Source: Actinomycetota bacterium (lineage in GTDB: Bacteria > Actinomycetota > Humimicrobiia > Humimicrobiales > Humimicrobiaceae). Taken from it: a DNA stretch of 5,661 nucleotides. The stretch spans positions 1-5,661 of the forward strand of contig JAMCVO010000702.1 in the NCBI GenBank assembly GCA_023475715.1, read 5' to 3'. Position numbers and translations under genes: made by a program. Under the pieces are notes generated by a model that worked only from the letters and a program-made list of their open reading frames with translations, was not told the origin of the DNA and did not search any database. Positions within the stretch are counted from its first letter, which is position 1. Each line of letters starts with the position of its first letter. This document shows positions 3,621 through 5,661 of this stretch, one piece after another.

Positions 3621-3647
3621 TGCACGATTTATTGCGTGATTATTGCG
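3621..3647 (+). repeat. 27-bp direct repeat, copy B (downstream of fic)
   Basis: Perfect copy of 2495-2521, beginning on the first base after the fic stop codon and ending 3 bp before the stop of the convergent Nudix gene. It carries one exact TTATTGCGTGA (3629-3639) and a degenerate second unit TTATTGCGCAA (3640-3650). Lying between two convergent 3' ends, it has no obvious promoter role, which favours a boundary or recombination scar, although protein binding here is not excluded. Confidence 0.85.
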
Positions 3648-3650
3648 CAA

Positions 3651-4055
3651 TTATTGAAATGGGTTATAGCCTTGAGCCAGTAAATTTGTGATCGGTAAAA
3701 ATAAAGGATTTGGCAGATCATCCCATGCAAACCAGCGCCATTCTTCCAATTTTTCCGGTTCTGTGTTTTTTACTTCACCGCAATCAAAGTCGCAAACCAC
3801 AAATACTGTTACATAATGTTTCTTTTCATCCTTAAAAATATCATTCGTAACTGTAATAAATTTAACATTTTTTACTGAAATTAATGTTTCTTCAAAGACT
3901 CCGCCACCCATCTTTTCCGGAATGGTTTCTCCAAATTCAAGGTGTCCACCGACAAATGCCCAAGATTTTTTACCATGCTTACTTTTCCGTTTCCCAAGAA
4001 GTACCTTATTGTCTTTCTTAATTATTACTCCTACTCCCACCCGTGGATGCTTCAT
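3651..4055 (-). CDS. Nudix-family protein with a disrupted Nudix box
   Basis: A 134-residue protein with the overall form of a small Nudix hydrolase: strand VGVGVIIKKDNKVLLGKRKSKHG, then SWAFVGGHLEFGE, a later KHYVTVFVV strand, the EPEKLEEWRWFAWDDLP segment (98-115) and the LFLPITNLL tail. The Nudix box GX5EX7REUXEEXGU begins normally (G37, E43) and keeps E55-E56, but the central Arg-Glu is G51-G52 and the later Gly is L58; the usual Pro of FPGG is V35. Loss of the first Glu of the metal-binding cluster should abolish or strongly reduce Mg-dependent hydrolysis. The altered stretch coincides with one arm of a perfect 25-bp inverted repeat shared with the upstream gene. The length of the box is unchanged and the frame is open, so it may be a recent loss, a non-catalytic Nudix protein or an artefact. 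It starts 4 nt after the membrane-protein gene's stop, so the two are probably co-transcribed. TATACT (4067-4062) also lies 6 nt before its ATG. Confidence 0.82.
   Translation of the reverse strand: MKHPRVGVGVIIKKDNKVLLGKRKSKHGKKSWAFVGGHLEFGETIPEKMGGGVFEETLISVKNVKFITVTNDIFKDEKKHYVTVFVVCDFDCGEVKNTEPEKLEEWRWFAWDDLPNPLFLPITNLLAQGYNPFQ
3898..3922 (-). repeat. 25-bp inverted repeat, arm 1 (inside the Nudix box)
   Basis: Its reverse complement is identical to 4168-4192 over 25 bp, with mismatches immediately outside both ends. In the Nudix gene it encodes the end of I45 through the start of V53 (P46-E-K-M-G-G-G52), that is, the part of the Nudix box where Arg-Glu is expected. Confidence 0.9.
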
Positions 4056-4059
4056 CGAC

Positions 4060-4572
4060 CTAGTATACCCGAAAGTTTGCCCTTTTTTTAAGATGTATAA
4101 AATAATGCTTGGGCTTAAAGTTAACCAGGTACAGGGAAATTAAGACATTGATTAAAAAATATCCGAGTTCCGGAAAAGATGGGTGGCGGAGTAAATTATA
4201 TCCGTCAATGGGTAGTAAAATTACAGTGAGTGCGACCAAAAGATCTAAGCCCCAGTGTCTTCTTTGATAAAGCCCCACAGCGCCTATTACTTTGACAAAT
4301 CCTAAAGCCAGAAGTACAAAAACTACATATGCCTGGTGTTCAAAAAAGTAGGGAATTGTTCTTTGTAAAATATATGCCACCAGATCATGCGAGTTTTCCA
4401 AAAGCTCGTCATTTCTTACTTTCATATAAAAATCAAACATCTGTCTACCTCCGAAAAATATTCCGAACCCTAATAATATTTCAAAAATACCGAGAATAAA
4501 TTTGTAAAAAATAATCAATTTTGAAACATAATATTCCTGCTCAAGCTTATCTCCATTATTTCTTTTACTCAT
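4060..4572 (-). CDS. Four-helix integral membrane protein, DUF2127-like
   Basis: A 170-residue membrane protein with four predicted transmembrane segments at about 18-40, 81-101, 108-123 and 134-152. A charged N-terminus (SKRNNGDKLEQE) and a basic C-terminal tail (HLKKRANFRVY) suggest both ends are cytoplasmic. The pattern LGFVKVIGAVGLYQRRHWGLDLL followed by a short loop and a final helix LINVLISLYLVNF resembles uncharacterised DUF2127 membrane proteins; this is by recognition of the pattern, not by search. No catalytic motif is seen. The loop RHPSFPELG (129-137) includes residues 128-135, coded by one arm of the 25-bp inverted repeat. It fits the fold and family well, so this gene is probably the source rather than the recipient of the shared sequence. 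It is first in a two-gene unit with the Nudix gene (4-nt gap). No Shine-Dalgarno precedes ATG 4572; TATAAT lies 8 nt upstream. Confidence 0.75.
   Translation of the reverse strand: MSKRNNGDKLEQEYYVSKLIIFYKFILGIFEILLGFGIFFGGRQMFDFYMKVRNDELLENSHDLVAYILQRTIPYFFEHQAYVVFVLLALGFVKVIGAVGLYQRRHWGLDLLVALTVILLPIDGYNLLRHPSFPELGYFLINVLISLYLVNFKPKHYFIHLKKRANFRVY
4168..4192 (+). repeat. 25-bp inverted repeat, arm 2 (inside the membrane-protein gene)
   Basis: Perfect inverted partner of 3898-3922 across a 245-bp spacer. On the coding (minus) strand it encodes residues L128-E135 of the DUF2127-like protein, in the loop between the third and fourth membrane helices. Confidence 0.9.
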
Positions 4573-4634: not shown

Positions 4635-5165
4635 ATGCAAGAAGATGATAAATGTCCTAAGTGTGGTTCCTCCCTGGGTGATGTAACTGAAACAAAAACA
4701 GGCAAAAGGCTGCAAAGGTGTAGCAAAGGATCCTGGAATCCTGCTACAAAACAAAATGAAGGCTGTGACTATGTTAAATGGTTGGCAATAGAACCCAAAG
4801 AACTTGATGAAAAATGCCCAAAATGTGGGGCCAGCCTTATTCTTCAGGTAACCAGATTTGGCAAAAAGATGAAGAAATGCTCTGCAGGGGGCTGGGATAA
4901 AGAAGCTAAAAAAGCAACGGGTTGTGACTATGTGGAGTGGATCAATGGGACAACTGAAAACCTAGATGAAAAATGCCCAGAGTGCGGGGAAGCACTGGTT
5001 TTATTCACCACTAGTTCAGGAAAAAGGATGAAAAAATGCTCAACAGCAGGTTGGGACAAGGCTGCCAAAAAAGCCACAGGTTGCACCTATATTCAATGGT
5101 TAAAACCCGGTGAATATGCAGGAGTCAGCAATGCAGGTGAAGAATTTTTACCACCAGAAGAATAA
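4635..5165 (+). CDS. Protein of three tandem topoisomerase-type C4 zinc ribbons
   Basis: A 176-residue protein made almost wholly of three zinc-ribbon repeats. The Cys sets are C7/C10/C29/C44, C61/C64/C82/C97 and C114/C117/C135/C150, with spacing C-x2-C-x17/18-C-x14-C. Each repeat reads CPxCG...GKxxxxCSxxxWxxxxxxxxGCxYxxW. This resembles the C4 zinc finger at the C-terminus of bacterial topoisomerase I (zf-C4_Topoisom, PF01396), but with a longer third interval that includes a conserved Trp. Such ribbons bind single-stranded DNA in topoisomerase; here there is no topoisomerase domain, so it may be a small nucleic-acid-binding accessory protein (inference). The acidic tail GEEFLPPEE follows the last ribbon. 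ATG 4635 is chosen because it directly precedes the first ribbon. An in-frame extension to 4521 would run back through the divergent promoter region and into the opposing gene and would add hydrophobic, non-family residues. It is convergent with the next gene, 4 bp between stops. Confidence 0.82.
   Translation: MQEDDKCPKCGSSLGDVTETKTGKRLQRCSKGSWNPATKQNEGCDYVKWLAIEPKELDEKCPKCGASLILQVTRFGKKMKKCSAGGWDKEAKKATGCDYVEWINGTTENLDEKCPECGEALVLFTTSSGKRMKKCSTAGWDKAAKKATGCTYIQWLKPGEYAGVSNAGEEFLPPEE
4653..5099 (+). repeat. Three in-frame zinc-ribbon coding repeats
   Basis: Ribbon-coding units span about 4653-4781, 4815-4940 and 4974-5099, from the first Cys to the final Trp. Units 2 and 3 are offset by exactly 159 bp (53 codons) and remain similar in DNA, for example GATGAAAAATGCCCA at 4807 and 4966. 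Unit 1 is more diverged and one residue longer between its second and third Cys. This suggests an older duplication followed by a more recent one giving units 2 and 3. Confidence 0.75.
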
Positions 5166-5169
5166 TTTA

Positions 5170-5661
5170 TTAACAACCTATAAATCTGATAGGTTCATGT
5201 AATAATAGGCGTATTTTTCTCCATTTTTCTATATTCATTACTCCTATATTTTCTAAAATTCTTCCTACAGGACCAGTGGTTGGATCTAACCAATATGCAA
5301 AACCATCTTTTGAAGCAAAATTACGTGGCTCGTGATCATATTCATCTACTAAGGTCATCAGATTATCTTCAATCAACAATTCTCTGATATTAGTTACACT
5401 ACCATCGTCCTGAATTACCTCCTGTTTCATAATATAGCCAGGGAAAAAACATTCAGGAAAGCTGAATTTTTCGCGCCGGATTGTTGTGTGGGGTATTTTA
5501 ACTCTTGTTCCTGCCACTAAAGCTTCAGCCAACATCAACTCAAGTTGGAGTCTGGGAACCGGTTCATATGGCCAGAAAGACATTCTATTGAAAAGCCTTG
5601 GGATTTTTACAAGATCAGAGGCTAAAGATTTATTTCTTCTGGGGTTTAACACAATATGTTC
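5170..5661 (-). CDS. Unrecognised protein, possibly 5'-truncated by the window edge
   Basis: The minus-strand frame ends with TAA at 5172-5170 and stays open to the right edge (163 codons). A GTG at 5652 could start a 160-residue protein, but the frame reads Glu-His-Ile upstream of it and no ribosome-binding site is visible, so the true start may lie outside. The protein looks soluble, with no membrane segment or signal peptide. It has an aromatic/Pro segment MSFWPYEPVPRLQLELMLAE, then a Phe/Pro-rich FSFPECFFPGYIM, an acidic middle (EVIQDDGSV, LIEDNLMTLVDEYDHEP) and the tail DPTTGPVGRILENIGVMNIE followed by KWRKIRLLLHEPIRFIGC. I recognise no family and assign no function. The coding character (steady amino-acid mix, tight 4-bp convergent spacing with the zinc-ribbon gene) supports a real gene. 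Confidence 0.6.
   Translation of the reverse strand, partial: EHIVLNPRRNKSLASDLVKIPRLFNRMSFWPYEPVPRLQLELMLAEALVAGTRVKIPHTTIRREKFSFPECFFPGYIMKQEVIQDDGSVTNIRELLIEDNLMTLVDEYDHEPRNFASKDGFAYWLDPTTGPVGRILENIGVMNIEKWRKIRLLLHEPIRFIGC

Follow-up and report, generated by a model that had tools for sequence, protein, structure and literature searches.

The window, i.e., the whole stretch of DNA analyzed here, is a contig of 5,661 bp with a G+C content of 36%, which, judging by its relatives, comes from a bacterium of the Patescibacteria type. It carries genes for a GDSL protein, an acyltransferase, a histidine phosphatase, a small hypothetical protein, a Fic protein, a Nudix protein and a zinc-ribbon protein, in this order, and ends with one further gene. 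With the exception of a gene for a DUF2127 membrane protein, which is sited between the Nudix and the zinc-ribbon genes, they are paired one to one and in the same order with genes of G031, a genome from the class of the Gottesmanbacteria MAG G003. Proteins with a match in G031 are 53–86% identical to their counterparts. The Nudix protein reaches 62%, compared with 83–84% for the Fic and zinc-ribbon proteins, which raised the question of a horizontal replacement of the Nudix gene. We rejected this idea, because the identities range from 53 to 86% throughout and gene order is kept, so that orthology is the simpler reading.

Three further features of the neighborhood were recorded. The Fic gene is flanked on both sides by a 32-nt direct repeat with 94% identity, built from TTGCGTGATT units (positions 2495–2526 and 3621–3652). 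Its upstream copy immediately precedes a TATAAT-like hexamer. Similar sequences lie on both sides of the Fic gene in G031 (L053, about 6144–6174 and 7273–7306). The repeat may serve the Fic protein as an operator or mark the edges of a movable cassette. The small protein encoded at 4636–5165 consists of three zinc-ribbon repeat units spaced 162 and 159 bp apart; its Pfam match is the topoisomerase I zinc finger and it is 83% identical in G031. The open-ended frame on the minus strand at 5170–5661 encodes a 163-aa protein without Pfam match at an E value of 0.01, which adjoins the zinc-ribbon gene in G031 as well (58% identity).

The two genes of interest both reside on the minus strand. The upstream gene (4060–4572) encodes the DUF2127 membrane protein (PF09900, 170 aa) and is followed after only 4 bp by the gene for a Nudix-fold protein of 134 aa (3651–4055). 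Given their shared strand and the 4-bp gap, the two are probably co-transcribed. The DUF2127 gene is without match in G031 (window positions 4060–4572 versus L053 7710–7782), and a match is present in 15 of the 373 genomes of the class.

The Nudix box follows the pattern G-x5-E-x7-R-E-U-x-E-E. The Nudix protein of the window matches PF00293 (3.3e-16) and has G37, E43, E55 and E56 at the spacing typical of the family, but the full motif is not present: residues 46–52 read PEKMGGG, and the positions of the R-E pair are occupied by G51 and G52. In a set of 120 homologues, comprising the best 119 of 1,120 matches from outside the window and the G031 orthologue, all have arginine at position 51 and glutamate at position 52, and not one has an insertion or deletion in the box. 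Among the matches listed, the consensus is glutamate at position 46 (93%), cysteine at 48 (99%) and alanine at 49 (81%). The same picture emerged from 32 genomic loci of relatives (30 best places of one search, G031 included, plus two of another), where R-E is present in all 33 aligned rows. A GGG box occurred neither in any of the 120 proteins nor in any of the 33 genomic rows. Compared with the G031 orthologue, identity within the tract amounts to 0/7 residues and 8/21 bases, versus 83/127 residues and 254/381 bases outside of it; only six of 382 sliding 21-base windows score as low as the tract. Its mean match to the homologues is 0.05, compared with 0.61 for the remaining protein. The nearest relatives of the Nudix protein are 62–66% identical, and no strain-level relative was found.

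The bases encoding this tract recur in inverted orientation in the neighboring gene. Positions 3898–3922 and 4168–4192 are perfect reverse complements over 25 bp, with zero divergence between the arms. In the Nudix gene, positions 3900–3920 of the arm are the seven codons for P46-E-K-M-G-G-G52, and the two terminal bases on each side are part of the codons for Ile45 and Val53. In the DUF2127 gene, positions 4168–4188 encode R129-H-P-S-F-P-E135. The arms are separated by a spacer of 245 bp (3923–4167), which consists of the 5' part of the Nudix gene, the 4 intergenic base pairs and the 3' end of the DUF2127 gene. The edges of the match are sharp: in the 20 bases outside the arm ends, identity is 1/20 and 3/20 and thus at chance level, and the two genes share no other 10-mer on either strand.

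The second-longest perfect inverted pair in the window measures 12 bp. Dinucleotide shuffling of the window, repeated 300 times, gave perfect pairs of at most 19 bp at any distance and 14 bp within 400 bp, and the probability that this exact 25-mer occurs as its reverse complement anywhere in the window is about 1e-12. We also scanned the 1,096,538-bp contig of G031 in tiles overlapping by 1,000 bp, so that pairs spanning more than 1,000 bp across a seam could escape, and found no perfect inverted pair of at least 17 bp with a spacer of 20–2000 bp; the longest was 16 bp, and the same scan recovers the 25-bp pair of the window. At spacers below 20 bp, the contig has a single 19-bp hairpin with a loop of 10 bases. 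In 51 other loci totaling 200,814 bp, some of them mutually overlapping, the longest perfect inverted pair measured 17 bp. With pairs of 20–2000 bp spacer reaching just 16 bp in G031, the 25-bp pair is exceptional by comparison, and the maxima of 16 and 17 bp led us to reject a lineage-wide habit of forming long inverted repeats. A dispersed repeat or mobile sequence was rejected as well, as viral contigs contain no exact copy of the 25-mer. It is also absent, with up to three mismatches allowed, from the 373 genomes of the class to which G003 belongs.

Which of the two arms is native can be read from the homologues. In 12 close homologues of the DUF2127 protein, the loop at residues 129–135 (RHPSFPE) shows proline in nine, serine or threonine in all twelve and histidine in seven, while its final position is lysine in ten. 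In 15 distinct loops from more distant genomic loci, a count that comprises rows with letters (one further row is blank), H-P is found in ten and H-P-S/T in seven. The mean match of the loop to the 12 homologues is 0.31, as compared with 0.54 elsewhere in the protein. Because the loop is itself variable, support for its being native is moderate. Its fit (0.31 versus 0.54) nevertheless far exceeds that of the Nudix tract (0.05 versus 0.61), which identifies the DUF2127 gene as donor and the Nudix gene as recipient. A first-pass annotation, made from the letters of the window alone, had already called the repeat exact and far beyond chance, had placed PEKMGGG where the family has R-E within a box of unchanged spacing, and had described the replacement of the glutamate without an indel by copying from the membrane-protein gene. 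Its coordinates, residue numbers and description of the repeat hold in full, the direction, the loss of R-E and the missing indel are supported, and RHPSFPE fits its family moderately well. Its reading as a templated inverted copy is still the cheapest account of a perfect and sharply bounded repeat.

We consider a single short-range template switch during replication or repair to be the best explanation and assign it a probability of roughly 0.75. The minus strand, with growth proceeding through DUF2127 and on into Nudix, would leave its template beside position 3923. Its end would re-pair at position 4168 with minus-strand DNA, either the newly made strand itself or the parental one. Copying would then proceed from 4168 to 4192, before the strand returns to its first template at 3897. 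In the four-point notation this is the order 3-2-1-4, and its mirror 1-4-3-2 would apply if the plus strand grew in the opposite direction. The former would be possible within one strand, since the donor would already have been copied, while the latter would require an inter-strand switch. According to the consulted parts of a survey of great-ape genomes, these two orders are the majority patterns and yield single inverted repeats (PMC7954356). Some 21–25 bases would have been copied and an equal length replaced. Equal length follows from the homologues, none of which has an indel here, and it leaves the reading frame intact with seven codons that are now unlike the family. The bases TT and GT at the ends may represent 2-base microhomologies. 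Among the matches listed, isoleucine is present at position 45 in 30% and valine at position 53 in 70%, so TT and GT may have been part of the old sequence, and this is why the true copied length is given as 21 to 25. The flanks of the tract are collinear with the relatives, as judged from the box without indel and from the gene order, which is kept versus G031 except for DUF2127. Several points count against this explanation. The sequence before the event is represented only by the 62–66% identical relatives, the donor loop is itself variable, and exact length neutrality is uncommon (5.5% of the great-ape events). In addition, the 245-bp spacer is larger than the template ranges of two published surveys, i.e., inverted-repeat spacers of up to 70 bp in the sections seen of a study in yeast (PMC8604942) and 100 nt in great apes, the latter being the distance within which templates were searched and not a part of the four-point model (PMC7954356). 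Longer template distances are allowed for in another study, as far as its consulted portion goes (PMC8794818).

The event had also been labeled as a mutation of the quasi-palindrome type, for which an imperfect inverted repeat would have been in place beforehand. This label is not supported by comparison with relatives. Across 30 of them, an average of 8.2 of the 25 bases in the homologous register match the donor 25-mer; ranked against all registers, this one stands at about 0.32 on average, and the arms lie 245 bp apart. The average slightly exceeds the random expectation of 25%, and each of the 30 genes has better matches elsewhere. A prior repeat is not consistently present in these relatives. 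Note that matches in register amount to 10/25 bases in the nearest relative (rank 28 of 378) and to 11/25 (rank 14 of 342) and 12/25 (rank 6 of 372) in two distant ones, so that some weak earlier similarity is possible, and since all 30 relatives are diverged, they provide weak evidence against an earlier imperfect repeat.

The predicted structure of the Nudix protein has a mean pLDDT of 94.4, and its best PDB matches are Nudix enzymes: TM-scores, normalized by query length, are 0.92 for 5gp0_A (rmsd 1.4 Å) and 0.93 for 5bon_B (rmsd 1.3 Å), at sequence identities of 43–49% to 5gp0_A, 5bon_B and 4kyx_A. The protein thus resembles AtNUDX1, NUDT15 and MutT-type hydrolases (5gp0, 5bon, 4kyx) in its predicted fold and differs from them in having a box without R-E. 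The alignment from which the model was derived contains homologues with intact boxes; the model can't judge the patch, and the helix predicted over it (residues 45–57) is not independent evidence. In the parts consulted of one study, REUXEE is given as the core of the Nudix box, the first glutamate of R-E-U-x-E-E coordinates magnesium in NUDT9, and NUDT9 mutants in which the box is changed lack activity (PMC6461439). A PDB entry, 5wy6, is entitled AtNUDX1 (E56A), and E56 of AtNUDX1 aligns with Gly52 of the window protein. With the R-E pair gone, the Nudix fold is very probably kept and magnesium-dependent hydrolysis very probably lost. G031 has five Nudix matches, and the loss of one such enzyme may therefore be bearable.

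Outside the tract, the Nudix protein has not clearly decayed, judging from its conserved columns. One of the 47 columns with at least 90% conservation deviates, which equals the homologue median, and of the 29 columns conserved at 97% none does. At a threshold of at least 75%, there are six deviations in 68 columns versus a median of four, a number equaled or exceeded by 35 of 119 homologues, and mild relaxation is possible. Gene decay following loss of function is thus not clear. The protein-database cluster of the Nudix protein (P0001) has two member sequences and that of the membrane protein one; the second P0001 member may represent an allele without the patch. For P0003 and P0126 the length of the longest contig is the same (17,245), which suggests another contig carrying both genes.

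Undiverged arms and near-typical conservation can be explained in three ways: by a recent event, by retention of the protein for a non-catalytic purpose, or by a change that is absent from the cell. The last of these describes the main rival to the template switch, an in vitro chimera or assembly error in which the patch was created by fold-back copying while the DNA was amplified or the library prepared, and the box in the cell is normal. The window is a single contig of 5,661 bases, and a Nudix gene without clear decay outside the tract is just what an intact cellular gene would look like. However, such an artefact would need two precise junctions inside 25 bases with zero net length change, and this in most reads. 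Fold-back artefacts mostly yield one junction and a persistent inversion. On balance we regard this origin as unlikely, though it is the strongest competitor.

A somewhat less probable proposition, compatible with the template switch, is that the patch was retained by selection, be it for a Nudix protein that only binds its ligand or for an mRNA stem controlling translation. The absence of clear decay would fit, and human TRPM2 provides a precedent for a Nudix domain without hydrolysis, as stated in the consulted part of its description (PMC6461439). In the predicted fold of the operon RNA, the 25-bp stem closes over the Nudix start codon at −92.5 kcal/mol, a value reached by none of 100 shuffled sequences (−73.7 ± 5.3 kcal/mol). 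But any 25-bp inverted repeat folds likewise; the stem is a consequence of the repeat and does not speak for selection. A recent event accounts equally well for the missing decay, and the variant is present in no other genome examined and in no homologue among the matches listed.

Repair of a break by templated insertion appears less probable still. The Nudix gene would have lost about 21 bp at a break, and the end would have been extended on the neighboring gene and then joined. The outcome in sequence is identical, and the 2-base overlaps at the ends are compatible with it. In this scenario gain must equal loss to the base. A returning template switch faces the same demand on length but does so without break or resection. 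The perfect and correctly oriented arms could in principle also be recombination sites flipping the 245 bp between them. This we rejected as very improbable, because Pfam finds no recombinase family among the nine proteins of the window (two of which have no match at all) and a flip breaks both genes: the DUF2127 frame would stop 32 codons past the arm and the Nudix frame would lose everything before it. In addition, one of the arms encodes a loop that is ordinary for the DUF2127 family. Point mutations with a chance match to the neighboring gene have no point in their favor and, at about 1e-12 for the exact 25-mer, can be dismissed.

The template switch thus remains our preferred reading, and the class of mechanism to which it belongs is already known. 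Unusual are its reach of 245 bp, the lack of a consistent prior repeat in relatives, the exact neutrality in length and the fact that a catalytic motif was struck. If the bases are real, the locus offers an unusually readable one-step change of several codons in a natural bacterium, with donor, recipient, direction and boundaries all visible, and a catalytic motif would have been lost without frameshift or stop. Ordinary comparison would score such an event as clustered point changes, profile searches still call the product a Nudix protein, and surveys restricted to templates within 70–100 nt would overlook some events of this kind. It is conceivable, though we doubt it, that the lineage performs inverted copying that needs no homology, is neutral in length and reaches over hundreds of bases, exceeding the 70–100 nt of the surveys. 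Were this true, a single replication error could swap a block of codons between neighbors, thereby altering or removing an active site in one step with the frame unbroken. Among the matches listed in the open-licence literature, as represented by titles and the beginnings of abstracts, none describes inverted copying between neighboring genes in Patescibacteria.

Three known systems come close. Template switches in great apes, as presented in the consulted parts of the survey, likewise swap a short stretch for a nearby reverse complement and leave the flanks collinear; 5.5% of these events are length-neutral, and their length has a median of 12 and a maximum of 128 bases (PMC7954356). Unlike them, the event described here affects a bacterium, draws on a template 245 bp away, comprises up to 25 bases with exact length neutrality, joins two genes and strikes an active site. 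Switching between the arms of inverted repeats in yeast is similar in that several adjacent amino acids are changed by arm-to-arm copying, but the cases described in the sections seen start from a prior imperfect repeat, have spacers of at most 70 bp and change no more than five residues per gene (PMC8604942), whereas the window has no consistent prior repeat in relatives, a spacer of 245 bp, seven altered residues and two genes involved. Finally, the lacZ quasipalindrome reporters of Escherichia coli are similar to our case in that bacterial replication switches to an inverted template close by. These reporters, according to the portion of the report available, contain an 18-bp quasipalindrome (PMC7202029), while no such prior sequence is seen at the window locus.
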